A DNA stretch of 30,995 nt from Saccoglossus kowalevskii. Taxonomy: Eukaryota > Hemichordata > Enteropneusta > Harrimaniidae. The stretch is from NCBI RefSeq assembly GCF_000003605.2, contig NW_003124898.1:493622-524616 (forward strand), given 5' to 3'. The notes beneath the pieces are model-generated. The model was not told where the DNA came from. It searched no databases and saw nothing but the letters and a program-made list of their open reading frames with translations. The stretch's first letter is position 1, and every line of letters starts with the position of its first letter. A program made the translations under genes and the position numbers. Below are positions 1 through 30,525 of this stretch, piece by piece.

Positions 1-578
1 TACCATAAAAACTATCAGGTCTGTGCAGTGTCGTATGACATCTATGTACCAAGTTTCATTGAAATGTGATGATTAGTACTTGAGATATCAGTGGAAAAAC
101 CGAAAATTGACTAATCATTATGCAAATTAGGTAATTAGTATCCACGGATTATTACCAAAAACTAATCAAAACCTAGCATTAGTTCAGAGCATCTATGTAC
201 CAAGTTTCATCAAAATCCAATGAGTGGTTGTTTAGATATCAGTGGAACAGTCATGGAACCACTAAAAAATAGCTAATTATCATGCAAATTAGGTAATTAA
301 TATGCACGGATTTTTACCAAAAATTAATCAAATCTGCGCATATGTTCAGAGCATCTATGTACCAAGTTTCATCAAAATCCAATGAGTGGTTCTTTAGATA
401 TCAGTGGAACAGTCATAGAACAGCTAAAAAATAGCTAATTATCATGCAAATTAGGTAATTAACGAGCATGGATTTTTACCAAAACCTAATCAAATCTGCG
501 CATTGGCCCAGAGCATCTATGCACCAAGTTTCATCAAAAACCGATGTATGGTTCTTGAGATAGCAGTGGAACAGTCGG

Positions 579-637
579 ACACACATACACACATACACAC
601 ATACACACATACACACATACACACATACAGACACACT
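579..637. repeat. ACACATAC microsatellite
   Basis: An 8-bp ACACATAC unit is repeated about six times, with decay into ACAGACACAC at the right. It lies between the 160-bp tandem array and the hairpin at 647-678, as part of the same element. Confidence 0.85.
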
Positions 638-646
638 AACTGCAAA

Positions 647-678
647 GACTCCCATTTTGTGCTTCGCACATGGGAGTC
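647..678. repeat. Terminal hairpin of the Helentron-like element
   Basis: The arms GACTCCCA (647-654) and TGGGAGTC (671-678) are perfectly complementary. An inner stem, TGTGC paired with GCACA, closes a three-base loop with a TTT bulge. A short GC-rich palindrome close to the 3' end is typical of Helitron/Helentron termini. It could also act as a fold-back structure in RNA, but its position after the array favours an element end. Confidence 0.7.
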
Positions 679-703
679 AAAAACACATCATTCATGTAAT
701 ACT

Positions 704-839
704 TTAGATGAAATCGAGTGCATTCACTGTAAGAGCACCATTTAACTTGTATCGCTTTTGTACAGTTGATATTGTTGTGTGAATGGAATACAATGACGTG
801 AACAATGGCACTGTTGTCGTCTCCCGGGGAAAGCTTGAC
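704..839 (-). CDS. Possible terminal exon of the RNF212B-like gene (tentative)
   Basis: On the minus strand an acceptor (GTGACACAG) precedes a stretch that stays open for 45 codons in the phase left by exon 985-1065 and ends in TAA at 704-706. The predicted tail is Ser/Thr-rich, with a short segment PRETTTVPLFTSLY that faintly recalls the Ser-rich C-terminus of RNF212B proteins. The phase match and open frame are seen; the similarity is weak. Another acceptor about 40 bp upstream would give an immediate stop instead, and the true end could lie outside the window. Confidence 0.28.
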
Positions 840-984
840 CTGTGTCACATGATCAAAACTGGTTGCTATTCGCAGGGAGCAGAATATGGCTTATACCCTG
901 GAATCAACCAAACAGAGTAATGACAGATGGAATATTTGGATCTATTATCTTTTAAAGAAAAATACATTTTAAATTCCATCTCAC

Positions 985-1065
985 CTATTTGCTGACTTGT
1001 TTCCTGGTGAACCACCTAACAGTCTTCGTAAATTAGCATTTTCTTCTTTGAGTATTAAAACTTCT
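985..1065 (-). CDS. RNF212B-like gene, duplicated coiled-coil exon copy B
   Basis: This is an 81-nt exon with acceptor CTTCCCAG and donor GTGAGATG, entered and left in the same phase (2-2). It encodes LILKEENANLRRLLGGSPGN and a few flanking residues, nearly identical to the exon at 2217-2300 (one glycine fewer, about ten nucleotide changes). The segment aligns with the end of the coiled coil of RNF212B (a leucine/lysine/glutamate-rich stretch). Because both copies are multiples of three in the same phase, either one or both can be spliced in without changing the frame. Whether the pair is mutually exclusive or additive cannot be told from DNA. Confidence 0.75.
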
Positions 1066-1160
1066 CTGGGAAGAAAAAAAAGAAAAAGTTGTGATACATG
1101 ACAAGAATTACTTTCAGATCTACATCAGTGCAATGAATAGATGTACTATAGTCCACTCTG

Positions 1161-1730
1161 ATTATCAGGACAACAGCAAAGCAGATATTTCTTGCCCTGC
1201 TGTCACTCAGATTGTCAGGACAACAGCAAAGCAGCTACTTTTTGCCCTGTTGTCACCCAGATTATTAGGACAACAGCAGAGCAGCTACTTTTTTCCCTGT
1301 TGTTTCTCAGATTATCAGGACAACAGCAGAGCAGTTATTTTTTGCCCTGCTGTCACTCAGATTATCAGAACAGCAGAGCAGTTATTTTTTGCCCTGCTGT
1401 CACTCAGATTATCAGGACAACAGCAGAGCAATTATTTCTTGCCCTGCTGTCAATCAGATTATCAGGACAACAGCAAAGCAGTTATTTCTTGCCCTGCTGT
1501 TGCTTAGATTATTGGGACAACAGCAGAGCAGTTATTTCTTGCTCTGCTGTCAATCAGATTATCAGGACAACAGCAGAGCAATTATTTCTTGCCCTGCTGT
1601 CAATCAGATTATCAGGACAACAGCAAAGCAGTTATTTCTTGCCCTGCTGTTGCTTAGATTATCGGGACAACAGCAGAGCAGTTATTTCTTGCCCTGCTAT
1701 CTCTCAGATTATCAGAACAACACCAACAGG
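1161..1730. repeat. 50-bp minisatellite, about 11.5 copies
   Basis: The unit starts ATTATCAGGACAACAGCA and ends CCCTGCTGTCACTCAG. Starts fall at 1161, 1211, 1261, 1311, 1361, 1408 (one unit is 47 bp), 1458, 1508, 1558, 1608, 1658 and 1708. The later units show a 150-bp higher-order pattern, in which three alternating variants repeat. Within units GCAGAGC can pair with GCTCTGC or CCTGCTGT with ACAGCAG, so each unit can form a small hairpin. The array lies in the intron between the two copies of the duplicated RNF212B-like exon. The long open frames across it are a by-product of a stop-free unit. Confidence 0.93.
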
Positions 1731-2216
1731 TGCATGTTCCACTTCTACACTGTTGAACTGTTGTAGTTGTTACATTTATAAAAGTACACATGTTACATAA
1801 TTGGTATTTCAAAGGTTTCAAACAAACATAAGTGGAGAAAACATCAAACAATTGTATTTTTATAGCTCTATGTCAAAATGCTGATCTTCAAGAGGAGAAT
1901 ATTTCATTGAAATACCCTTGGGCCTAACTGGACAGTGTGAATTTGAGATATAAGCAGAATTGTGCAAAACAAATCCCATAAATTGCAGATTTTCATCTGC
2001 ATTTCATTTTCATGCCAGTTGGTATCTTACATTGGATAGCAAAAAAGATCAACTATATTCCATAGTATAAATATGAGCAGACAAATTTGATCTAACAAAA
2101 TGGCTGCCAGTTGGCCATCCATAAACTTTCAGATTGTGTCAGGAGCTAAAAAGATTAATAAAAATAAAATATCTAGGGTTTTTTGAGGGAAAAATACATC
2201 TTGATTACAATCACAC
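1731..2216. other. Intron sequence between duplicated exons, rest
   Basis: AT-rich intronic DNA with no recognisable gene. Bases near 2150-2210, just downstream (minus strand) of exon copy A, share a TGTATTTTTC stretch with the bases just downstream of copy B. This indicates that the exon duplication carried some flanking intron with it. Confidence 0.5.
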
Positions 2217-2300
2217 CTGCTAGCTAACTTGTTTCCTGGGGAACCACCTCCTAAAAGTCTTCGTAAATTAGCATTTTCTTCTTTGAGAATTAAAATTTCT
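2217..2300 (-). CDS. RNF212B-like gene, duplicated coiled-coil exon copy A
   Basis: This is an 84-nt exon with acceptor CTCCTTCCCAG and donor GTGTGATT, in the correct phase (2-2) to follow the exon at 2964-3031. It encodes EILILKEENANLRRLLGGGS plus PGNKLAS. It continues the coiled coil of the protein and matches in position the leucine-rich stretch of human RNF212B that follows the long helical region. It is the transcript-proximal member of a tandem exon pair; copy B lies 1.15 kb further on. Confidence 0.82.
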
Positions 2301-2772
2301 CTGGGAAGGAGAAACAAAAGACATAATGATATATTAAAATCAGATACACTTCATGAATTATCAGTTTCCATTGTGAATCTTATAAAGCTTTAAGTTTAAA
2401 CTTTTCAAAGACTAAAAAAAAAAAGATTAATTCATTGTCCCACAGAGGCAGATTTGAAATGGGATTCATGCAGACAGTTGAATGATTATTGAAAATGTCC
2501 ATCATTCAACAAAACACAATGGAATTTAAAATCATGTGTGTATGTGTTAAGCTTCTAATAGGCCAAATAGAATAATATTTTATAGAAGACTACAATAACA
2601 AGTCTCATATTCTCACATTTTAGACCATTTCATGGATTTTTCATGACCAATCACAGGTCATTTGCATGGCTGAAGTGTCAAAAATGGTGTTTTCAACAGT
2701 TGGAATAGTAAAAAAAGGCCATCATTAATTCCTCAGACAAACATGTACATGTGCTACTGCATATAATCAGTT

Positions 2773-2954
2773 ACTGTGAAATTTTTTTATTTTCGCTGAA
2801 GGAATGATTCAGGGAAAATAAAATCCAGCGAATATACCTTTTTCCTATATTTTACATTCAACTTGTCAAAAATCAGTGAAAATAAATTCCATACAAAACA
2901 CCCCAAAATCTTTTCAGTAAAACTTAATTCTAGCTAAAATGAAGTATTTTACAG
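2773..2954. mobile_element. MITE family A, copy 1 (next to a splice donor)
   Basis: The element runs from CTGTGAAA to TTTTACAG with TA on both sides. It holds the family hallmark TTTTCGCTGAAGGAATGATT in the left half and TTTTCAGTAAAACTTAATTC in the right. The two halves are partly complementary. Its right end lies about nine bases from the donor site of the RNF212B-like exon at 2964-3031, inside the intron. Other copies are at 7507, 16518, 29299 and 29930. Confidence 0.85.
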
Positions 2955-2963
2955 TATTTATAC

Positions 2964-3031
2964 CTTTCTAAATCTTCCCATTGTTCTGTCTTCTTCCTGG
3001 CTTCTTCTATTAGGGCTTTCTGTTTATTATT
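2964..3031 (-). CDS. RNF212B-like gene, coding exon 5
   Basis: A 68-nt exon (acceptor TTCTCTGACAG at the high end, donor GTATAAAT at the low end). It encodes NNKQKALIEEARKKTEQWED then LE and a split Arg. The charged, Glu/Lys/Gln-rich sequence is a typical coiled coil and corresponds to the helical middle of RNF212/RNF212B. Phase 0 in, phase 2 out, so it joins both exon 3758-3814 and exon 2217-2300 in frame. Confidence 0.8.
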
Positions 3032-3757
3032 CTGTCAGAGATAACTCAATATTATTCACATAGAATAGTTTTAATGCCTTAATTCCACCAGGAATGACAT
3101 GAACAAACTATTAAAAGAAGGCTTGTATATACAGTGTTTCAAAGATCAAAGTCTTATTATCTATTTACTGGTACAAGAAATAAGATTTGAGCAAGCCATT
3201 GATAATATAAGTTCCTTCTCTCCATCTACTAATATGACAAATGGTCAGAATGTATATGCCCCTTTTTGTAAAAGTGTATCAATTCTAACACTGTTAACAG
3301 GAAAGAGTCACTTAACATGTACAAATGTAGAATATCTATGTTGGAAAATGTAAAGAAAAATGACTACCAGATGGCCTTATTGGATTGGATTTTGACAATT
3401 TTGTTGGTGTTCTAGAACACAATCGTCTGTGATTTGACCATCTGGGATAGGATTGCAGGAAAAATCAACTTGCATCTTTGTACTTGGTGATTGCATTCTC
3501 AAGTTAGAAGCAAAAATGCCCCAAAATAAGTATTTTTGTCAGACAAAATGGCTGTCAATTTAAAAAAAAATCAAAGAATCTTCCAAGGCATATTGCAATG
3601 TTCCAAAGGAAATAAATAGAAAGTTTGCAGTTTTCATGATCAGTTTATTTTGGTACCCGCTGTAAAGTGTGCAGCACAACCTGCTTTCCTGTAATCTACC
3701 CAAACTTTAGTGATTTACCCTGCAATAACTGTATAATAAGTGCATTAATTTTATTAC
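3032..3757. other. Intron of the RNF212B-like gene
   Basis: AT-rich intron DNA. An open stretch of 84 codons on the plus strand (3099-3353) has no recognisable similarity and low-complexity composition. Nothing else stands out. Confidence 0.5.
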
Positions 3758-3814
3758 CTTCTCTTTCATGTGAGTGATTAATCTTTGTCTGTGATTTTTT
3801 TGAAAGTCCATGAC
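3758..3814 (-). CDS. RNF212B-like gene, coding exon 4
   Basis: A 57-nt exon of exactly 19 codons (VMDFQKNHRQRLITHMKEK), acceptor TTTCTCTACAAG, donor GTAATAAA. The pattern V-x-x-F-Q-K-x-x-x-x-x-L-I matches the start of the coiled coil in RNF212 and RNF212B. The preceding exon must stop at SQLNQ for this junction to make sense. Reading through its donor gives a weaker look-alike (VLAFLQF), so the splice was chosen by family similarity and by the good GTAATAAA/CAAG signals. Confidence 0.82.
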
Positions 3815-4311
3815 CTTGTAGAGAAAAAATGAAAATGACACTAGTTGCTGATATCGCTAAAAGTAGACCAATAATGTATATAATTAAATTGTAGTATATC
3901 GCAGCGATAAACAGTCAAACCTATCGGTACTTGAAGAAATTTTCCATTTTCGACAGGTGGTTTTATATGGAGGTTGATATGTTATGAATAACAACATGAC
4001 AATAACTTCTCAGTTAAGGGCAATTTGTCACCAGATACTTGAAGGTTAAGAATAAAAAACTATATGCTTGTTTGTCTTGATTAAATTCAAAATGTCAGTT
4101 TAGAGACTAGTTCTAAACACTAAACATGTAATCATCTGCCATCATTTTGGCTTTTTTGACCAACTTGTGCCCAAAGATAGTCACTATGGCTGCTTTGGTC
4201 ATTAACACAGGTTTGACTATAGTATGGTGTGATATGGAATATATCTTATAATTAAAAAGTATAACATAGTTTGATTACAAATGTTTTTGAAAATTGGAGA
4301 AAGGCTAATAC
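3815..4311. other. Intron of the RNF212B-like gene
   Basis: AT-rich intron DNA with short low-complexity tracts. No repeat or gene recognised. Confidence 0.4.
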
Positions 4312-4386
4312 TTGGTTTAGTTGACTTTGCTGTTTTTTTATTATGTCAGCTGGATCCTTGAAAAAAATTTCCACATCTGGTTTCAT
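4312..4386 (-). CDS. RNF212B-like gene, coding exon 3
   Basis: A 75-nt exon of 25 codons starting MKPDVEIFFKDPADIIKKQQ and ending SQLNQ. Acceptor TTTTTTTGCAG, donor GTATTAGC. The segment K-P-x-x-x-(I/M)-F-F-K-(D/S)-P is the hallmark that follows the RING finger in RNF212-family proteins. In-frame with the exons on both sides. Confidence 0.85.
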
Positions 4387-4886
4387 CTGCAAAAAAACAA
4401 CACATGCTATTGAAAACTTGACATGACAACTCATCATACATGTAGGAATCACAACAGTCAACAGTATTTGAAGTATATCATTTATTTGCATATGTATAAA
4501 ATTATGAGTGATGAATTTATTGTAGAGTGTCATAGACATAGAGGATGATCATGTAAATTGTCTATGGTTCAATTCGCCATATATCAGATGATTTTGCTTT
4601 TTTCATAAAAACTTGTAATTTGTATTAATACATGTACTTAAAACTCTTAATGTTAATGTAATTGTTGTACACAAAAACTACTTGACATGTATGAAAATGT
4701 TTCTGCTGACTGTAATTTGGTATACTAGATAACATACGGGAAAGATGGTTACAGCAAAGGTGGCAGAACTAAATGCCCTATACAGAATAGGACAATCATA
4801 CATGCCATCTTTATTAACTTTTTGATGTTTTTTAAGCAGAATAAAATACATATGACATATTCAAATTAGGTGTAAAATAATAAATA

Positions 4887-5063
4887 CTGTAAAATCTGTA
4901 TTAAAAGCTGCGGCTTTTATTAAAATGGTACAATGCAACAGAGGGAATGTGGCTTCTACTAGAGCATCTACACATATGAGAAATGGTGTATTTTTGGTAC
5001 TCAATTGTTCAAAAAGAATGGGTGCGGCTTCTATTAGGAATGTGGCTTCTAATACAGATTTTA
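4887..5063. mobile_element. MITE with CTGTAAAATCTGTATTA inverted repeats
   Basis: The left end CTGTAAAATCTGTATTA and the right end TAATACAGATTTTACA are inverted copies of each other. A TA precedes the left end. Subterminal blocks GTGCGGCTTCTATTAGG and AATGTGGCTTCTA resemble those of the 1.27-kb element at 10665-11929 (GGTGCGGTTTATATTAGG), so the two families look related. Non-autonomous; no coding capacity. Confidence 0.75.
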
Positions 5064-5268
5064 CATCGTGCCGTAATTTTACGGTACTGCACTGGGTATT
5101 TGCATCCTACCATATTAGGAACACGAATTCCAAATATGGAAGATTACGCACGTAAGCATCCTCTAATAATACAAACAAAAATGGCAGCCCACAGTTCACT
5201 AAATCTGTTCTAAACGTTTTGGATTTCAGCTTTCCCATGATGTATTCCTGGGAGGAAAAGATGTATAG

Positions 5269-5415
5269 TAATACGGTTATTATGGGGATACTGCAAAGTA
5301 TGCACTAAGACAGTACATGGTCACATCAACCTTCGCTGCAAGTCGGCTAAAGCTCTCGCTGTACTGTCTTTGTGCATACCAGGTATTTTGCGACATCCTC
5401 ATAATAACCTATTAG
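5269..5415. mobile_element. Fold-back MITE
   Basis: Two inverted arms of about 50 bp (5269-5316 and 5360-5415) flank a short centre. Matching pieces include GGTTATTATG/CATAATAACC and AAGACAGTACA/TGTACTGTCTT. The left half of a second copy starts at about 30925 and runs off the right edge of the window. Confidence 0.75.
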
Positions 5416-5566
5416 TAACCATCTGCATTGAAATTATATTCTCCTTAGGATTTTGATTGCTGTAATAAGTTATATTGAATATGAAAAATCACAAAAAAGA
5501 CAACAACAAACGAACATGTAAAATGTAATGTTAAATAACAATAATTTTATCATGTTAGCAATTTAC

Positions 5567-5628
5567 CTGAGAAGACAGAGCAATTGATGAACAGGGATTT
5601 CCACACATCATGCACTTATTCCTTGTTC
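5567..5628 (-). CDS. RNF212B-like gene, coding exon 2 (second half of RING)
   Basis: A 62-nt exon: two bases complete a split Gly, then 20 codons TRNKCMMCGNPCSSIALSSQ. Acceptor TTTTGTACAAAAG, donor GTAAATTG. C-x-x-C supplies the last zinc ligands of the RING finger. The N-P-C-(x)4-A-L-S pattern matches the family, in which a third Cys and an L-S follow. Confidence 0.85.
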
Positions 5629-5915
5629 CTTTTGTACAAAAAACAAAACAAAAGCAGATGAACATACATTATGATAAACCTTTTCAAACACTTTCACAAA
5701 CATATGACAAGAATAAGATTAGGTCGTCCCTTTGTACTAATTTTTAATCAAATCATGTAAAAAATATTATCGCATCGGAAACCCAGCATGTGTGATCTTT
5801 GAACAAAATACATCAGGATTTTAATTTGTGGACCACAATACAAAATAGTATAATTCAAGTAAAATAAACATTGTGATGCAGATAGAGACTAGGATAACTG
5901 TTAAATTATACATAC

Positions 5916-6024
5916 CTTCTTTAACACACGTTTCACAATACATATGACCACAGTTAGTTAAAAAGAATTTTCTACCATCTCCAGGCTGATGAAAACATGT
6001 ATTACAGTGTACCCAATCAGCCAT
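5916..6024 (-). CDS. RNF212B-like RING-finger protein, first coding exon (meiotic crossover factor family)
   Basis: The family (ZIP3, ZHP-3, RNF212, RNF212B, Vilya) marks crossover sites on the synaptonemal complex and is thought to act as SUMO or ubiquitin E3 ligases; that is family knowledge. This exon encodes MADWVHCNTC (first C-x-x-C, Cys7 and Cys10) and LTNCGHMYCETC (Cys25, His27, Cys30, Cys33), i.e. C-x2-C-x14-C-x-H-x2-C-x2-C, completed by C-M-M-C in the next exon. The start was chosen at MADW, which matches the N-terminus of family members. Just upstream an ATTGCAG acceptor suggests a spliced 5' UTR. Donor GTATGTAT. The protein then continues through KPDxxxFFK and a coiled coil (exons 3-6). 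I favour RNF212B over RNF212 from the order of motifs, but cannot be sure. Confidence 0.88.
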
Positions 6025-6699
6025 AACTTTCACCAGATACTCAGTACCTGCAATGTTCATTAATATCTTTAACGATGTAAAAAGTTGTTTTTTTATAGCC
6101 AACTTTTTTGATTTGCAGAGTTATGAGCAGTTTATATTGACCGATGCAATAACATAGGAACATTTTAATGATGATGTCATTGCGCACGGCGCTATAGGAT
6201 TGTTTTTTTGGATTCAATCGCCATTGAAATATATAAATATCGATAAAATAGAAGGGAACAGGTTTGTTGTGTCGATAGTAGCATGTTCAGCTCACTGTAG
6301 AAGTAAATCTATTTTACCTTCACTAAACTATTAGACAGGCAATTTTATTCTGATATCAGCATAGTACATGTATATATCTCAGACTACTCTATTCAACTAC
6401 TATTCTCCGTCTAATCTTCCATTTAAAAAAATAATTAAGCCACGAAAGTCTGAATAAATGCAGGTATCAACGTATACCGGGTCATATTGCTACACGGTAT
6501 CCGTTTCGATAGTAGGAGAAATCATAGCCAGCGGAACGGCATTAAGCATTATGGAACTGAAAAAATACTATGCGATCACTGATTATTACGAATCGTCAAT
6601 TGAGAAACATTTTCCGGTCATGAAAAAACAATCTCCTACAATTCATATTGTGATAAATAACACTGAATATCGAAAATGACTTAAATAATAATGTTTTAC

Positions 6700-6868: not shown

Positions 6869-8568
6869 GTAAGTGACATATTTCATCATTTAGAGGCAAC
6901 CCCGCCTACTCTAAAAATAGAATCCAGTCTCTCCCGACTAGCTAATCAGGTTCTGAGTGCACAATCCACTACCCCGATCGTCTCGATTTAGTTCAAGGTG
7001 TGTATAATCGTTTTATAATTTTTCAATGGGTTGCATCATTCGGCTAGTATTTAAACATACTCAGAACGTGTATTGTAATAGGAATCTCACGTAGTAGAGG
7101 GAACACCCAGGTTTCGCACTAAAACGTATGCGAATTGCGTTAAGGTAGGCTTAAAGTTGTGGATATATAAAGTTACTGAGCTGTGGTTTTGTGGGTCCCT
7201 GCAGGTTCTTATGTTAGCAGTTAAGGTATTACGTAACGGCCATGGTCAGCTGGTGCGTGTATAATCAATACCCATTTACTACACGTCGCCGTATTGTTCA
7301 TACATCAGCAAACTCAGTCACTGCCTATAACCCTGTCAGTGGCAAAACCACAACTTATTAAAACAATATTTTAAGAGGCAATGAATGTGAATATATTTTA
7401 CTATTTTTCAGAATTCTTAAAGGGCTATGGGTTTAATAAGTTGTCTTATTTGATATGGGACTCATAGCAACATAATTATGTGCGATATTTCATCTTCAAC
7501 AATATACTGTAAAATTTTCGTTCGTAATTGATTTTCGCTGAAGGAATGATTCAGTGAAAATAAAATTCAGGGAATATACCTGTTTTCCTATATTTTACAT
7601 TCAACTTTTCCAAAATCAGTAAAAATAAATTTCATACAAAACACCCAAAAAGTCTTTTCAGCGAAAATTAATTCAAGCTAAAATAAAGTATTTTACAGTA
7701 GTACGATTTATATTAAAGTAAAAAAATGTTGTTTCGGCAGTAAACATATCGGTATATGTTTGACGACATGTTGGAAAACACTATGTGCATCTAACATGAA
7801 TTTGAAAGGCATGTGCAGCAGCATTTTCCTATTCTAATCAAAAGTATACTGCTATTTTTACTGCGAAACAATGTTTTATTTTTCTTATTATTAATCATAC
7901 CATATCGTTTTTTTCAATATAAGTAAGTATTATAAAAAAAGTTATTTAAGGCACAGTGGTCGTCACACCACACATGTGCAAGGTATGGATCTCATAAGAA
8001 CAAAGATGGCAAGCACACACTGAGACATTACTAAGTAACTAACTAATTTCTTTGGTGATTGAAAGGTATCGAAGGAGTCATCGACGGTAGTGCAAGTCAC
8101 GGCAAGGTCAAAACACATACTCGCGATTTCCATCGGAAGAACGCATTAGATTGTGGGAATACACAAATGTTACACATGCTCGACTTGATGACTATAAACG
8201 CCCTTCAAACATCGTCAAAAAAACACTCAAAGTTGTCTTTAATACAAGGATAACAAATTAAAACTGTATAGAAAATTCAAAACAAGATTCAGCGTAGAAA
8301 AATTACAAACTGTGTTTCAAAAACTTTAGATCAGTTACTGACCAGACTGTTAATTGAATTGGGCATACCAGATCATCTACCCTGGTATAATTATTTGACT
8401 CTCTATTCAGTTATACAGTTTTATAATTAGACTGTATTTTACATATGTTGTATATGGGACCAATCTAGTATGACTTAATACCGATAAGCTTTAAATTCCG
8501 TGTTGGGAGAATATTACCAATAAGTACTTTTTTGATAAATCAAATAATCTAGTTATATTTCTTTTCAG
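6869..8568. other. First intron of AARS1 (predicted)
   Basis: A 1.7-kb stretch with one family A MITE (7507-7698). The remainder is AT-rich. A plus-strand open stretch at 8059-8253 has no recognisable similarity. A weak inverted repeat (AAGTTGTGG near 7154, CCACAACTT near 7350) may mark another decayed MITE. Confidence 0.45.
7507..7698. mobile_element. MITE family A, copy 2
   Basis: Starts CTGTAAAATTTTCG and ends TAAAGTATTTTACAG, with TA on both sides. Same internal blocks as copy 1 (GCTGAAGGAATGATTCAGTG, then AAAAATAAATTTCATACAAA and TTTTCAGCGAAAATTAATTC). Confidence 0.9.
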
Positions 8569-8724: not shown

Positions 8725-9456
8725 GTAAGTCATTGTCTGAACAACATTGTGAAATGAAAAACTTTATTAGTTTTCGGTCTCTAATAATTTGTGCACTCAA
8801 TGTATTTTTTTTAAAAAACTGGTTACTGGTATTACTGTCATCGTCATATTGTCCTGAACAGCAAAATAACAACAGCAACTGGTTTGCTATGCACGTCTGG
8901 AGATCGTTAGAACAAAGTTATCAAAATAAAATGTATGTACTGACACAGTACGAAATGTCAGAGCACAGGCGCTGGTGTGTCTTATGCGTGGCATAAAGCC
9001 TGTAAATGAATGCATTTCGACAAACAGCGTACTCTTGTAAAAGTGGTTGGAACTAACCAGTTCCAATCATGTAATGATTTTAAGACGTGCATAAGAAACC
9101 AGTCAGCAACTTAGCTGGCAATGTTGTTGTTTTGGTGTTCAGGATAATATGGCGATGACAGTAAATTATTTTTTTAATTTGCGATGTTCAAAAATTTGTT
9201 ATATATTTTGCACTGAACATCTTCTGTCCATATTCTGGCTGATGTAGAAGAACTGTATCTAATGCATACTTGGGTGGATTTCTTTCAAATTACTTACTTA
9301 CATCATAGACCTTAGGTCTACGCTTACATAGATGAATCTCCAGAGCCTGTATCAGACTAAGCCATTTCATGTCTTGACTGATTTCATCCACCTAGTACAT
9401 TTCATAACACAGCTACATTCCTTGCACGGTAATATTCTTTTTTTTCTTGATTACAG
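8725..9456. other. AARS1 intron containing a fold-back element
   Basis: About 730 bp. Most of it is the fold-back element at 8830-9168. The plus-strand open stretch 8733-8996 lies in that element and the exon-intron junction and is not a gene. Confidence 0.6.
8830..9168. mobile_element. Fold-back element (long inverted repeat)
   Basis: The left arm (about 8830-8925) and right arm (about 9080-9168) are inverted, diverged copies. Matched pieces include ACTGTCATCGTCATATT against AATATGGCGATGACAGT, TCCTGAACA against TGTTCAGGA, and ATGCACGTCT against AGACGTGCAT. The centre is about 150 bp without coding capacity. No clear target duplication. Confidence 0.7.
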
Positions 9457-13918: not shown

Positions 13919-15090
13919 GGCTACACCGATTTAATTTTATGGATGACATCCACGCGCGCATTAGTTTTCGCCTGTTCTCAAAAAAAAAAAAAAAAAAAAA
14001 ATCTCCGACGACGAGTCTCCACAGATCGGTTTTCTGTCCGGAACTTGCCGACTCACATTGTCGCAAAGCGCCGACTTGTCCTAAAACTCGTTTTGGACTA
14101 CCTCAAAACCAAACTCCGCACAGTTAGATGCGCGTTACGTAAAGCGAAAAGACCCATGGGAAAGAGATTGCCTCAAAACATGCAAATTTTGCCATAAATG
14201 ATCCAACATAGCGACCACACCACCAAAATGCGTGAGCATAAAAGTTCAGAGGTGAAACGGAAGGATTGTTGTAGACTGGTACGCAATTGACGTTAGCCAG
14301 GGAGACGTTTACACAGCTATACGAAAGGTCGGTAGCGGCAAGCGAGTTTCGCCCAGACAACTTTAAGAACATATTGACATGTCCAGAGTGGCTGTCCCGC
14401 GTTTCTTCTGCAACGATGAGAGAAATGGGAGAGGAGTGGAGGTGTATGGTGGCCTAAAAGTCGGTCAGGCGACAAATCATTTCGGTTGCTTTGTCCGCAT
14501 TGAAGTCGACAAAACTGCAACGAAAGCAGCAGAAGCTCCTTGGCCGAAGTCCCCTTACGGGGTGAAGAAAAGTTTCTTATTATTTTTTTTTCATTTTNNN
14601 NNNNNNNNNNNNNNNNNNNNNNNNNNNNNNNNNNNNNNNNNNNNNNNNNNNNNNNNNNNNNATCTGAAGTGTCACTTTAAAAGCTGTAGTTTGAATGTCA
14701 AAGAAGTTAATTTCCAGGTTGCTGTTGACAAACTTGTTGTTCATTTTTAATTATTTTTTTTTTTCAATACAACACAGTAAGTTTTTCTTTATTATTGAGT
14801 TGATGTGTATGCCTTTGGCAAAGCTAACATCTGCCTTATCCTCTTGCCTTTTCAAAATCAAAGGTGATGACAGTAATACAGTACGAAATGTGTACATCAA
14901 CATGTGCCTCCTACAAATAAAGACTTGTTTTGTTTTTTGATACACTGTGGTTAAATTCGTAATAATAGCTCCGTAGTCCTGTGGTTTTAGCAGCATTTTT
15001 TTTTTTGACCGAATTTTTTTTTTTTCGTCCTCTCGCATTAGTTTTGGGGTCTTCAGAGGATGTCATCCATAAAATTAAATCAGTGTGGCC
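13919..15090. mobile_element. 1.17-kb TIR element broken by an assembly gap
   Basis: 33-bp ends, 13919-13951 and 15058-15090, are inverted copies with two mismatches; the core is GATTTAATTTTATGGATGAC. Just inside, the phrase GCATTAGTTTT recurs near both ends but in direct orientation. The centre has A- and T-runs, a GC-richer block (14020-14560) and the N run. Open stretches in that block show no recognisable domain. The true length of the gap is unknown, so a transposase remnant cannot be excluded. Confidence 0.7.
14598..14661. other. Assembly gap (64 N)
   Basis: A run of 64 unknown bases inside an intronic transposon; it does not touch any exon. The run starts after a T tract, which may be why assembly failed. 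Confidence 1.
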
Positions 15091-16517: not shown

Positions 16518-16725
16518 CTGTGGAATACTTTACTTTCGCTGGAATTAATTTTCGCTGAAAAGGCTTTTTGGGCATTTTGTATGGAATTTATTTTCACTGA
16601 TTTTTTATGAGTTTAATGTGAAATATAGGAAAAAAAGTATATTTGCTGGATTTTATTTTCACGGAATCATCCCTTCAGCGAAAATAGCGAAAATAAATTC
16701 CAAGCGAAAATAAAGTATTGTACAG
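16518..16725. mobile_element. MITE family A, copy 3 (reverse orientation)
   Basis: Starts CTGTGGAATACTTTACTTTC and ends AAATAAAGTATTGTACAG with TA on both sides. The internal blocks are in the opposite order to copies 1 and 2 (TTTTCGCTGAAAAGGCTTTT at the left), so it is inserted the other way round. Confidence 0.88.
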
Positions 16726-17039
16726 TATGTGACAATGATGTCATAAAATTCGCTGAAATTATTAATGCTATAATATAATGTGAATTTGAACGTCAAAACA
16801 AAGGTCATAGCATTGTAATGATGTCAAATATCGCGTGGGATTCAACAAACACAATATTTTGTTTATATTTCTATGCTTAATAAATGAAATGTTCCCCTCT
16901 CAAAAATAACATTGAGCTATAAAAAACAATATTCAAGTTCAAAATCAAATCGTTGATTTTTGGGGCAGATGTTCAGTCCACCACACCTTTCATGCCATAC
17001 GCAAGATCTCACAATGAACAGAGAATCACACTTCTTTGT

Positions 17040-17386: not shown

Positions 17387-18247
17387 TTAAAGATTTGCTT
17401 TTGTTTTCTCAAACATTTGCCAATATGATATCAAATTTTCGCATATCTTGTATCCAACTTTGTTTTTCTGATTCTTCTGTGCTTCAGCCGAAACCCAGCA
17501 GAAAGGGACATCACCGCGTACAGCTATTTGCATTATCAACTTTGCAGAAATTATTTTAATCAATCCCATCTTTCGATAGGCTGGTTCACAGTAACTGTTT
17601 CCAATATCACCAAACTCTTTCTCCATAACCCATGCAACTGGCTGATGGTTTCGATCAAAAACCGCCAAGGAAGGACAATACTTAAGCCGTTTTGCATACG
17701 CTGGCGTAGGAGCTGGAGGGTGAAACCATCGTTCCTCCAAAATTGCAGCATGCTCGGGAGTCAGGTGGCCCATCGTGAAACCATCAGGGAGGGGAGATTG
17801 TGCCAATGCTCTGATTATATAACCAACTTTAAGAAGCATTGTAGCTCCTTCATAAAGAAATATTGGGACTTTCTGAAAGCCTTGTGCAACACACGTTTCC
17901 ATGACAACATCTCGGTTGTAATATGGTACAGCATTGAAAAACACCTTTTCTTGTTCCCAGTCAATGAGTCCGTTAGTTCTCAATAGTGTTTTAAGTCTCT
18001 TGTTGTCTTTAGAGAATACAAAGTACTCTTTCGTTATCGGTGGGTATCGATAATCCTTCATCACAATTAGAATGGTTGTACTTTGCTGGACGTTTTCAGT
18101 GTCGATATACACGTCAATAATTGGCCATTTGTTCTGTGTTAAAACACTATTTTTTATAAGCCAATACTGTGCGTAGCAGTCTGGTGTCCATTTCTTTAGA
18201 TGCGTTATCAGCTTGGGTAAGCTATCTCTTGTGACTTGAATCGCCAT
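17387..18247 (-). CDS. Glycine N-acyltransferase-like protein, paralogue 1
   Basis: 286 residues, the usual size of the family (about 290). GLYAT enzymes move acyl groups from acyl-CoA to glycine or other amino acids; substrate here unknown. Residues 1-125 match the N-terminal domain (KKWTPDCYAQYWLIKNSV; NKWPIIDVYID; YFVFSKDN; NGLIDWEQ, compare S-K-D and L-I-N-W-K in human GLYAT). Residues about 150-286 match the FR47-like GNAT domain (LPDGFTMGHLTPEHAAILEE; CPSLAVFDRNHQPVAWVMEK; EFGDIGNSYCEPAYRKMGL, the acetyl-CoA-binding turn region). The reading frame is intact and intronless. The frame extends 25 codons upstream, but MAI is the start shared with paralogue 2 and a TTTCTGTAG acceptor sits just before it, so the upstream part is probably intron. 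About three quarters identical to 25143-26000. Lies antisense within AARS1 intron 5. Confidence 0.88.
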   Translation of the reverse strand: MAIQVTRDSLPKLITHLKKWTPDCYAQYWLIKNSVLTQNKWPIIDVYIDTENVQQSTTILIVMKDYRYPPITKEYFVFSKDNKRLKTLLRTNGLIDWEQEKVFFNAVPYYNRDVVMETCVAQGFQKVPIFLYEGATMLLKVGYIIRALAQSPLPDGFTMGHLTPEHAAILEERWFHPPAPTPAYAKRLKYCPSLAVFDRNHQPVAWVMEKEFGDIGNSYCEPAYRKMGLIKIISAKLIMQIAVRGDVPFCWVSAEAQKNQKNKVGYKICENLISYWQMFEKTKANL

Positions 18248-18262
18248 TTTACTACAGAAATG
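18240..18262 (-). other. Splice-acceptor-like site just before the GLYATL 1 start
   Basis: Minus strand TTTCTGTAG lies five bases before the ATG. The same TTTCTGTAG sits at the same place in paralogue 2. A 5' UTR intron ending there is likely; the upstream exon was not found. Confidence 0.5.
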
Positions 18263-20744
18263 AGACAAGGGAAAAAGAATTAATATTAAAATATTTATTT
18301 TGATTCCATCTATTGTGTGCATAGCTCTTACAGCAGTTCTGAGAATTATTCGGACAGTCAGTTAGCAATATATCTTTCAACTTTGCAAAACACTTGGGTA
18401 TTTGTCCAATCTAGACTGGATGGTGCCATTGTATTGGCACACCCTCAATTGGAATCCTTCCATTATCTTGCAAGATGCGGGTAAAACGCTGATTTCAAAA
18501 CGACACGCGTTGGTTACCATATATTGACAGGTTATATGTTGTATATGCATTCAAAGTGTTATTTTAAATTGTTATAACCATCTGAGTCCACCTAACATAC
18601 CGTAAAAACTTGATTCATTTGCGGTCTCTATTAGTTCGCGCACCCATTTTATTTTCGAATGCTAATTTTTAAATGTATCCTTTTAATTCGCAGCGTTCAA
18701 AAACATGTTTAAAATTGTATCCTACTAATTCGCGGGCCAGAATAAAGTAGATAACTCAGAATATATTGCATGAAGACATTAAAAATATACATTTTATTTG
18801 AGTTTTTATGTTCTCAGTACTTGGTGTAGCTGCAATCGCAGATAATCTCCATCAGCATAGCCTTTCAGTTAGCAAGCAGTTTAGGTTCGATAAAGATTTG
18901 ACCTGAAAAAAACCATTCCCCCTCGACACTACAGATGTTGGGCAAGATTACTACATAGTCGATAAATATCCATCGGTCAGCACATCAATTACGAATTTCC
19001 GTGATAGAAAGCTTAGTACAGGGCTTTTTCATCGCTGGTCCACAGGGTTGCATCGACCATGTGTCCACCATTATTCTATTACGTCATTTAAGTGAACCGC
19101 CCTAAGGTGCGTAAATTTGACATTTTTGATTGGTCGGGCGATTGACCTCGTGTCACATTTTCATTATACCGGATTCGGTAAAAAACACAGAGTTAAGTGG
19201 TCATGTACCTTCTATAAATCTAACCTTGCACACATAATCTTGTACTGACGTGTTTTTTGTCCAAGAAAGACGTTCCCTTTCATTTAATCCCCAGTTAACT
19301 CTTTCGCGTCCATGGTATTTGTGAGAGTTGAAAGATTTTTTGAACAAATGACAAGTAACTATATTGATTTGCGTCAAGCTGGATGGCCCGAATTTAAATA
19401 TCAGTGCATGAACTCTGGAGGTCATTGTCCAATGCCGCATGTAATTCCAACGCGTGGTTATTAGAGTTCAGTCGAAATGTACATGAATAATGCGATTGAA
19501 GTGCGCTGTCCAGAGTTCATTATATTATAGTAAAATTTAATTTGACGTTTGGTATGTTTATGTTTGCGTAATTATCAAGTCGGTGATATTGAAATATTCA
19601 CATACCCAATACCCTGGGTCAGTGCCCTAACAATAGTTAAAAAAAACTAATTATCATGAAAGCAATACATTACGAAGTTGAAATATTCAGAGCCGGTACA
19701 ATATTGTAAACAAATTTGCGTAATTAGAAAAGCAGTGCACTAAGTAAACGACGTTGATATATTCAAGCCAGTACAGAGTTGCATACAAGTTGTGTAATTA
19801 CAGTACCTTCGGATATAATAACAATTTTACTAGACTGACGCGCGGAGCATGAAAGAAAAGGGTTGCTAAAGTAACGCGCTAGTTCAGTGCGTGACTTGGG
19901 GCCAAACTTCAGTCAACACACACTTGATGTCAGCATCGCCGTGCAACAAGTTTCGCAAAAAAGTACTTGAAGTTCAATTACGTCCCAAAATGATGTCGCT
20001 GATCACTCAGTTGTTGCAGCGTGTGTTGTGTCATGTCCATAATGCACCTCGTTTCGACTTTGGCTTGCTTTTCCTTCTTAGTGCATGTTCTTGTTCACGT
20101 AAAATGCGACCTCTCATCAATGTATTAAAACACTTTGAATTTATACTTATGCATGATTATATTTGGTCAACGTGAAACATTATTTTTTCTAAACATTTTC
20201 TGAGACCATTTTTATCAACGCAGGGTTATTTTTCCAGACAAGATGGGCTTCGTAATATCTGCCATAACATCGCCCGGGCGATGCCTAGAAAAATAAAAAA
20301 AGGCAGTGCAGCCAGACAGCTACTTTGTAGCCACGTGTTCATTGTTTGTTTGTGTACAGAGTGACCTTTGCCATTTCAGTGTTTCATTTCAAGTGTAACT
20401 TGGTGTGTGGTCCTTGACGCAGTGTTCAAAAGTGCCTTCTTTGAGCGATTACTTTTTCAACTGTAGTTTGAAAATGACGAGGGTATGACAACCGTTATTA
20501 TGTCTAGTTCTTTTTTATACCATGTACAACTGACTGAAATGAGCGAGGGGGGTTGACATTTTTCGACAAATTTAAGCAACACCCAACTTGCGATTTTTGA
20601 AATTACTGAAAATAATTACAATATAAATAAAGAATGGTTGTTGTATAAGCACGCTAGATAATACCGGTAGATGCAATTCAACATGCCGACAACCCCTATG
20701 AAATAGTATTCCGAAACCACACGCCCGGTCAATCAAGTGGCGCC
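18248..20744. other. AARS1 intron 5, upstream of GLYATL gene 1
   Basis: About 2.5 kb. It holds an inverted-repeat arm (18335-18416), a MITE-like left end (CCGTAAAAACTTGATTCATT near 18600) with no right end found, and loosely repeated units of 75-95 bp (about 19560-19800: TTTGCGTAATTA and GAAATATTCA recur). Open stretches at 19201-19440 and 19891-20175 show no recognisable domain. Confidence 0.5.
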
Positions 20745-25142: not shown

Positions 25143-26000
25143 TTAAAAATTTGCTTTTGTTTTCTCAAACATCAACCAAGATGTTACAAGGTCATCACAT
25201 ATCTTGTATCCACGTTGGTTTTTTTGGTTCTTCTGCGCCTCAGCTGGAACCCAGGCGAAGGGAACATCATTACGTTCAGCAATTTGCAATTGCAACTTTG
25301 TTACAACTATTTTTAAGAATCCCATCTTTCGGTAGGCTGGTTCACAATAACCGTTTCCAATATCGCCAAACTCTTTCTCTAGAACCCATGTAATTGGTTG
25401 ATGGTGTTTGTCAAAAATCGCCAAAGAAGGACAGTATTTCAGCCTTTTTGCAAACATTGGCGTAGGAGATTGAGGGTGGATCCACCGTTCTTCCAACAAT
25501 GTTGCATGCTCTGGAGATAGGTGGCCGATTGTAAAACCATCTGGTAAACGGGGTGATTGTGCAAACTTCTTAGTTTTATCACTGGTTACAAGAATCATTG
25601 TAACTCCATCATAGCGGTATGACTTTTGGAAGCCCTGTGCAGCGCACGTTTCCATGACAACATCTCGGTTGTAATGTGGTACAGTATTGAAAAACACCTT
25701 TTTTTGTTCCCAGTCAATGAGTCCGTCAGATCTCAACATTGTTTTAAGTCTCTCATTGTCTTTAGAGAAAGGAAAATATTCTCTCGTCATTGGTGGGTGA
25801 CGAAAATCCATCATCACAATTACAACACTTGTACATTGCTGAACATCTTCAGTATCAATAAACACGTCAATAATTGGCCATTTGTTCTGTGTTGAAACAC
25901 TATTTTTAATAACCCAATACTGTGCGAAGCAGTCTGGTGTCCATTTCTTGAGATGCGTAATAAGTTCTGGTAAGCTATCTCTTGGAACTGGAATTGCCAT
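25143..26000 (-). CDS. Glycine N-acyltransferase-like protein, paralogue 2
   Basis: 285 residues; intact, intronless coding frame. Same domain order as paralogue 1: N-terminal GLYAT domain (KKWTPDCFAQYWVIKNSV, NKWPIIDVFID, YFPFSKDN, DGLIDWEQ) and C-terminal FR47-like GNAT domain (LPDGFTIGHLSPEHATLLEE, CPSLAIFDKHHQPITWVLEK, EFGDIGNGYCEPAYRKMGF). The two paralogues are most different between the domains (about residues 127-147), where paralogue 2 has a Lys-rich stretch in place of a hydrophobic one. Start chosen at MAIPV, shared with paralogue 1; the 17 codons upstream are probably intron because TTTCTGTAG lies just before. The 3' flanks of both genes are alike (GGAGCTAT-TCAGCC). Acyl acceptor and donor unknown. 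Confidence 0.88.
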   Translation of the reverse strand: MAIPVPRDSLPELITHLKKWTPDCFAQYWVIKNSVSTQNKWPIIDVFIDTEDVQQCTSVVIVMMDFRHPPMTREYFPFSKDNERLKTMLRSDGLIDWEQKKVFFNTVPHYNRDVVMETCAAQGFQKSYRYDGVTMILVTSDKTKKFAQSPRLPDGFTIGHLSPEHATLLEERWIHPQSPTPMFAKRLKYCPSLAIFDKHHQPITWVLEKEFGDIGNGYCEPAYRKMGFLKIVVTKLQLQIAERNDVPFAWVPAEAQKNQKNQRGYKICDDLVTSWLMFEKTKANF

Positions 26001-26242
26001 TTTTTCTACAGAAATAGATGAGTAGAAAATAAATATTAATACAATGTACATCTTTTTCGATTGTAAAATGGGCTTTTTTAATCAGCAATGTTCAGTGTCC
26101 TGTTTCGACTGCTTTGTACATCAATACATTACTACAAAGTACACCAGCAGTACCATGCTTCCACTATCATGATGCCATCCTTCAATTGACTGACCTGATA
26201 TCTTGTTCATATTGAATACATATAGAAAACTACATACCGGTA

Positions 26243-28387: not shown

Positions 28388-28815
28388 GTAAATGTGGGAT
28401 TCATTTATTATTCTTATATAAAATTAAGAATTATGTATTTTCATAGCTGCGAGAGTGTCTCCTTTATGAAAATGGAAACTTTGCAGCTTATAACAGCTAG
28501 CTGCAAGGATATTGCACTAAAAGTAACTCTTCCCACTTTGCATAAACTTAGCAAAAAGTTGAAAATTACTTTTCAGACACCTTGATAGAAATGGATTGTA
28601 CATGGATTGTGTTTATCATACAGACTAATCTAATTTTTGGATTTAAAATAATGGCAGCATCTTCATCAGGTTATTATACTGAAGAAATTGTTCTAAAACC
28701 TGCTGTATCGTGATTGTATATTCATCAAGCTGGGAATAAATGTTGGACTGATTTCATAGTGCAGTGTTCTGAAATCAACATGACTGCATATGAACCTCGT
28801 ATGTCTCATCATTGT

Positions 28816-28998
28816 CATGTGACTTTGCAAGAATCCTGTGTTGCTATAAAGTCATGTGACTTTGCAAGAAACCTGTGTTCCTGTAAAGTCATGTGACTTT
28901 GCAAGAAACCTGTGTTCCTGTAAAGTCATGTGACTTTGTAAGAAGCCGTTTTGCTGTAAAGTCATGTGACTTTGCAAGAAACCTGTGTAGCTATAAAT
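28816..28998. repeat. 37-bp minisatellite, five copies, one E-box per unit
   Basis: Units begin CATGTGACTTTGCAAGAA at 28816, 28853, 28890, 28927 and 28963 (one is 36 bp). Four of the five units are entered through GTCATGTGAC, which contains the E-box/M-box core TCATGTGA recognised by MITF/TFE-type factors. Regulatory use is speculation. Confidence 0.9.
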
Positions 28999-29298: not shown

Positions 29299-29480
29299 CT
29301 GTAAAATACTTATTTCCGCTGAAGAAAATGATTCAGTGAAAATAAAATCCAGCGAATATACTTGTTTTCCCATATTTTAAATTCAACTTGGAGAAAATCA
29401 GTGAAAATACATTACGTACGAAACATCCGAAAAGTCTTTTCAGTGAAAATTAATTCCAGCTTAAATAAAGTATTTTACAG
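29299..29480. mobile_element. MITE family A, copy 4
   Basis: Starts CTGTAAAATACTTATTTCCG and ends AAATAAAGTATTTTACAG, with TA on both sides. Same orientation as copies 1 and 2. Confidence 0.9.
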
Positions 29481-29929: not shown

Positions 29930-30127
29930 CGTAAAATACTTTATTTCCGCTTGGAATTTATTTTCGCTGAAGGGCTGATTCAGTGAAAATAAAATCCAGC
30001 GAGTATACCTTTTTTCCTATATTTCATATTCAACTCATCAAAAATCAGTGAAAATAAATTCCATACAAAACATCCTAAAAAACTGTTCAGCGAAAATTAA
30101 TTCCAGCGAAAATAAAGTAGTTTACAG
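29930..30127. mobile_element. MITE family A, copy 5
   Basis: Starts CGTAAAATACTTTATTTCCG (one base off the usual CTGTAAAA end) and ends AAATAAAGTAGTTTACAG followed by TA. The internal phrases are those of copy 4. Copies 4 and 5 are only 450 bp apart, on either side of exon 7. Confidence 0.9.
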
Positions 30128-30525
30128 TAGTAGTAGTCCTCATCATGTGGTTATATGTTGTTTTCTGGTATCAGAAAGTCTTAAATAATTTAACATCTTT
30201 CCACTAAAATATGTGATTTTAAAATTGAACATAATATATGTTTAAATAATCAACATGCTAATTAATGCTCATTTTTTACCATAATTCTGAAGAATCAGTA
30301 AAAACTTTTGGATTTACATTAAACATTGCATTACACTAAACAATGGCGGATAAAAAAAAAAAGGATTATGTGATTTAAAGAATGCTTGAAAAAACAACGA
30401 ATCTACGTGCCATTAATTGGATTCAATCCTGTGCAAACCCAACTTTTTGACAAGATTAAAAAATATTATCAATAATTATCAAGATATGATTTAAATGTTG
30501 CTTTACCGTATTATTTTTTTTTCAG
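30128..30525. other. AARS1 intron 7, rest
   Basis: AT-rich intron sequence without recognisable features. Confidence 0.4.

Follow-up and report, generated by a model that had tools for sequence, protein, structure and literature searches.

An RNF212-like gene of Saccoglossus kowalevskii carries two adjacent copies of a single exon, which probably encodes the last heptads of a coiled coil. The duplicated exon pair is real, and both copies look usable and frame-compatible. Our main reading, to which we give a probability of about 0.48, is that the exon was duplicated, that both copies have been kept as working exons and that the main transcript carries both in series; the anatomy is observed directly, and we infer selection on the copies and their serial use.

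Gene model and family relationship

On the minus strand of the window (the whole 30,995-base stretch of DNA that was analysed), the gene has the transcript order exons 1 to 5, copy B and copy A (Table 1). The model stops at copy A, the C-terminal exons and tail lying past window base 1, and inspection by eye of the three frames of positions 1-984 yielded no recognisable exon downstream of copy A.

Table 1. Exons of the RNF212-like gene and the intron between the duplicated copies, in transcript order
Feature	Position in window	Strand	Content and basis
Exon 1	5916..6024	-	Start codon and N-terminal portion of the RING finger; spliced product matches zf-RING_5 at E 4.3e-11
Exon 2	5567..5628	-	End of the RING finger; GT-AG; phase 1 to 0
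Exon 3	4312..4386	-	Linker, and perhaps the beginning of the coiled coil; donor weak by weight matrix (top 33% of 356 GT sites)
Exon 4	3758..3814	-	Predicted coil
Exon 5	2964..3031 (68 nt)	-	Predicted coil; phase 0 to 2; upstream partner for B or A
Copy B, first in transcript	2217..2300 (84 nt, 28 codons)	-	Zipper-like end of the coil and GGGSPGNKLAS; phase 2 to 2
Intron between copies B and A	1066..2216 (1151 nt)	-	From exon coordinates
Copy A, second in transcript	985..1065 (81 nt, 27 codons)	-	Zipper-like end of the coil and GGSPGNKSAN; phase 2 to 2

The spliced product matches the Pfam family zf-RING_5 (E 4.3e-11; score 43 bits, cut-off 27.9), which corresponds to an N-terminal RING finger, while the other 10 Pfam families listed for it all fall below their cut-offs. 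No RNF212-specific model matched in Pfam or NCBIfam, where the 12 NCBIfam rows were all far below cut-off. Of the 28 sequences of solved structures matched at E up to 1, the best are RNF4 (1.2e-4, in the RING) and COP1 (5.7e-4, residues 19-130), and the others are RING proteins with weaker matches and proteins that are unrelated or of coil type. The RNF212/Zip3 label is our assumption, taken from a resemblance of the gene to crossover-promoting RING proteins. With RNF212, RNF212B, HEI10 and Zip3 the gene shares an N-terminal RING finger (zf-RING_5), after which a coiled coil is predicted, and it differs from them in the doubling of the coil-end exon. A meiotic role is putative and taken from the family.

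Proteins of the Zip3/RNF212 family are typically 200-400 residues long, and RNF212 and RNF212B constitute two paralogues in jawed vertebrates, and lampreys, lancelets and tunicates have one RNF212-like gene each, according to PMC10133878. The gene had originally been called RNF212B-like, a label that we do not retain because RNF212B is, on that account, a jawed-vertebrate paralogue and because the C-terminal motif separating the paralogues lies outside the window.

An alanyl-tRNA synthetase (AARS) gene is arranged head-to-head with the RNF212-like gene on the plus strand (8578-30674). Its first-exon peptide matches tRNA-synt_2c (7.7e-13); its start, end and exon borders were placed by eye, and it appears to extend past the window. 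Two similar uninterrupted open reading frames on the minus strand, at 17387-18322 (311 aa) and 25143-26051 (302 aa), are apparently both nested in one AARS intron and are glycine N-acyltransferase-like, with FR47 at about 3e-5 above its cut-off and Gly_acyl_tr_N/C below theirs.

The two copies: sequence, origin and constraint

Copies A and B have 73 identical bases among the 81 aligned (90%), or among 84 (87%) when the gap is counted, and both are of phase 2-2, in agreement with the original description of a tandemly duplicated pair about 88% alike. Their alignment contains one in-frame 3-nt gap, copy B having an extra Gly codon; the copy lacking this codon, as had been noticed earlier, is the 81-nt one, here named A, which is nearer to the window start and downstream in the transcript. 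The expectation that the frame is kept with A, B or both was borne out, since none of the three combinations meets a stop before the window's last exon ends. The splice sites also proved to be as good as claimed. Both copies have the acceptor cccag, with pyrimidines at 18/20 (B) and 20/20 (A) positions, and both have GT donors (CAG/gtgtga and TAG/gtgaga). When a weight matrix was used to rank the gene-strand GT sites of positions 1-6100 (356 in all), the donors of B and A came in the top 1.1% and top 0.6%, respectively, and that of exon 5 in the top 7.6%.

When each copy was compared with the 30,995-base window by tblastn, it found the other at E about 1.3e-11 and its next best match at E about 2, and thus no third copy of the exon was detected there. 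The copies are adjacent homologous exons of one gene and constitute a tandem exon duplication. This is a common and well-known event, ordinary as a change in gene structure: a 2002 survey, cited in PMC9013439, found it in about 10% of animal genes, and the present pair resembles those cases in comprising neighbouring homologous internal exons of the same phase, with common intron edges and lengths of 3n. For genes of the RNF212 family, no description of exon duplication or of mutually exclusive exons was found in the literature searched, which covered few subscription journals, and the words coiled-coil and exon are absent from the main text of PMC11745341.

Similarity between the copies continues into the introns over a short distance. 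In extensions anchored at the exon edge, counted upstream from the AG and downstream from past the 6-base donor, it extends for about 64 nt on the upstream side and about 45 nt on the downstream side, neither being matched in 200 shuffles. Beyond the last 20 bases the upstream similarity is weak (matched by 7/200 shuffles), and ungapped flank identity is at background level past 40 nt. The flanking intron bases that had been described as common to the copies are thus supported over 45-65 nt by the anchored test, but not by unanchored local comparison of more distant flanks (upstream 25-430, downstream 8-600), in which the score was reached by 299/300 and 89/300 shuffles, respectively. Outside the splice signals, 20 of 54 intron bases differ (JC 0.51) and, within the exon, dS is 0.335 (5 changes at 18.5 sites) and dN 0.052 (3 at 59.5 sites), giving a dN/dS of 0.16.

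From this divergence of both exon and intron it follows that the copies are old paralogous exons and not alleles. An assembly artefact, in which two alleles or a collapsed repeat had been placed in tandem, might be suspected from the minisatellite between the copies, a place where assemblies may err, and from a run of N elsewhere in the window (14598-14661). However, the exons differ at 8 of their 81 aligned bases and the introns close to them at 20 of 54, and the detected similarity ends 45-65 nt out, where alleles should match across the whole 1.2-kb unit; we consider that the divergence and the short similar flanks rule out such an origin, whose probability is negligible. One exon would, instead, have been tandemly duplicated, and the duplicated unit would have included at least about 45-65 nt of the intron at either end.

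The low dN relative to dS and to intron divergence implies that amino acid change has been held back. Three non-synonymous among eight changes has a probability of 0.022 if both copies were neutral. If one copy was neutral, three or fewer would occur with a probability of 0.12-0.15 and, because only eight substitutions separate the copies, dN/dS alone is compatible with one unconstrained copy. This is what allows the alternative in which one of the two is decaying or no longer used and looks intact by chance. We simulated a dead copy using 4000 pairs for each of six settings, with copy A as ancestor and with assumptions on divergence and on indels (12% of substitutions, 20% of the indels in frame). 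Under these assumed rates, frame, openness, the four splice bases and at most three non-synonymous codons were retained together with a probability of 0.0003-0.026, whereas with both copies under selection at most three non-synonymous codons occurred in 0.60-0.999 of 1000 pairs. Moreover, pyrimidine tracts and donors are still strong in both copies, and we judge a decaying copy to be very unlikely.

Selection is thus likely to act on both copies, as had been proposed, with dN/dS and the joint retention of features both pointing to it. The copies had also been called conserved; two open copies are indeed present, but their likeness is one within a single genome and not conservation across species. 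A tblastn search of prokaryote and viral contig collections yielded no relatives (29 and 1 pattern matches, respectively). Both copies, whose anatomy, phase and splice signals can be read directly, would since their duplication have been retained as working exons, to judge from the pattern of substitution.

Predicted end of the coiled coil

Each copy starts with a zipper-like stretch having L, I or V, L, N, L, L at its d-a positions, and this pattern (L-x3-I/V-x2-L-x3-N-x2-L-x3-L) is of the dimer type with a core Asn. It is followed by GG(G)SPGNK, a Gly-rich or Gly-Pro break. A Val/Ile exchange is the sole difference between A and B in the zipper core, and the others (Gly number, Leu/Ser, Ser/Asn) all fall in the hinge-like part. 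The duplicated exon is likely, judging from residue pattern, to provide the last heptads of a coiled coil and then a Gly/Pro break to the tail. The exon had earlier been assigned to a coiled-coil end, which the zipper-like pattern would fit, but the coil signal as a whole is modest: hydrophobic residues occupy 9/17 a/d positions when exons 4-5 are taken together with the B zipper, which 72/2000 shuffles reach, and 5/12 in exons 4-5 alone, no better than shuffles (692/2000).

The zipper starts of B and A are 28 residues apart, exactly four heptads and, since B comprises 28 codons, the heptad register carries from B into A. Despite the kept register, the Gly/Pro run in copy B should break the helix.

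Use of the copies in splicing and its possible meaning

Four devices known to enforce mutual exclusion were considered, namely a short intron, mixed spliceosome types, a length other than 3n and competing RNA pairing, the last within the window, and none was found. The 1151-nt intron between B and A leaves too much room for the copies to block each other sterically, the intron ahead of B and the one separating B from A, both of which are whole in the window, are GT-AG, and the lengths of 84 and 81 nt, both 3n, allow double inclusion without a frameshift. For pairing of the four exon flanks with three stretches of in-window intron, none of 12 duplex tests gave a result distinct from shuffles (30 per test, mononucleotide; z -0.54 to 2.24, negative values meaning stronger pairing), and a docking-site and selector model was rejected on this basis.

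The intron between the copies contains a minisatellite (1154..1722) with a 50-bp unit in 11.4 copies. Each of the 11 units examined can form a stem-loop in the transcript strand with 9-11 of 11 pairs, and the predicted folding energy of 1140-1740 is -256.9 kcal/mol in that strand, against a mean of -154.8 for 20 mononucleotide shuffles, and -210.2 kcal/mol in the opposite strand. No two-sided compensating changes occur among the 11 hairpins, and repeat homogenisation would account for the kept pairs, such that the minisatellite was discarded as a selected RNA bridge. An 11-mer, ATGTATTTTTC, is common to both copies downstream of the donors. No exact complement of it occurs in the window; with one mismatch, its complement is present at 2632-2642 in the intron before B and also at 8800 and 21542 outside the gene. 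Allowing at most one mismatch, the pattern has nine matches in the window where 2.89 are expected, a number reached by 1/100 shuffles; we do not count this excess as evidence for RNA pairing.

Other repeats are present in the window. The region after exon A carries a 162-bp tandem repeat in 2.9 copies followed by a (ACACACAT)n run (103-576), and a 37-bp tandem repeat in five copies (28814-28997) lies apparently inside an AARS intron. Dispersed AT-rich repeats of roughly 150-200 bp, with a common core near TTTCGCTGAA recognised by eye, occur at about 2780-2960, 7510-7700, 16520-16730, 29310-29480 and 29940-30130.

Since nothing was found that would force a choice between the copies, inclusion of both is considered most likely, and we favour serial inclusion, with optional skipping second and mutual exclusion third. 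The main transcript would then include B and A in series, producing two near-identical zipper-plus-hinge units with starts 28 residues apart, and skipping of one copy would not harm the frame. The likely effect would be to lengthen or double a module for self-association at the coil's distal end. The GGGSPG break inside the coil of a B+A product could, nevertheless, harm a rod-like protein, and this would favour single inclusion.

Isoforms from A, B or both had been envisaged earlier; the frame is kept in all of them, but no exclusion device was found. Their strictest form, mutually exclusive or regulated alternatives differing slightly in coil end and hinge, gains from the fact that the copies agree in phase, are of similar length and differ for the most part conservatively, since mutually exclusive exon pairs, the known homologous substitutions, tend to differ conservatively (PMC9741552), and single inclusion keeps one zipper end ahead of the tail. 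In phase, size and mostly conservative differences the pair is like those of the Dscam, FYN and SNAP25 type, and it departs from them in that no enforcing device was found and the copies are joinable in frame. The long intron, the GT-AG introns, the 3n lengths and the lack of a notable result in 12 pairing tests all speak against exclusion, as does the reported rarity of such splicing, and there is little to choose between since the zipper core differs by Val/Ile alone; we regard mutual exclusion as unlikely. Optional cassette use, in which transcripts with B, with A and with both would coexist and vary in hinge and coil length without strict exclusion, is compatible with the frame being kept in every combination, with the middling donor of exon 5 relative to the stronger donors of the copies and with the hairpin-forming minisatellite between them; it is rather unlikely given the strong splice signals of both copies by the weight matrix. 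That a splice-selectable coil end (B, A or B+A) tunes distal coil length, hinge and crossover-focus assembly, perhaps differently between the sexes, strikes us as quite unlikely.

For serial inclusion, the reading that we prefer, some indication of what might result comes from human HEI10, a different family member. In PMC13174674, its coil residues 123-196 are described as dispensable for the tetramer but needed for fibres and for foci in cells, and its C-terminal coil end as making longitudinal contacts. Because residues 123-196 are needed for fibres and foci, a doubled coil-end segment could matter and, by this analogy, a doubled or swappable coil end could alter protein assembly. If both copies are used, the gene would provide a natural experiment on coiled-coil length and crossover-site assembly of a crossover RING protein.
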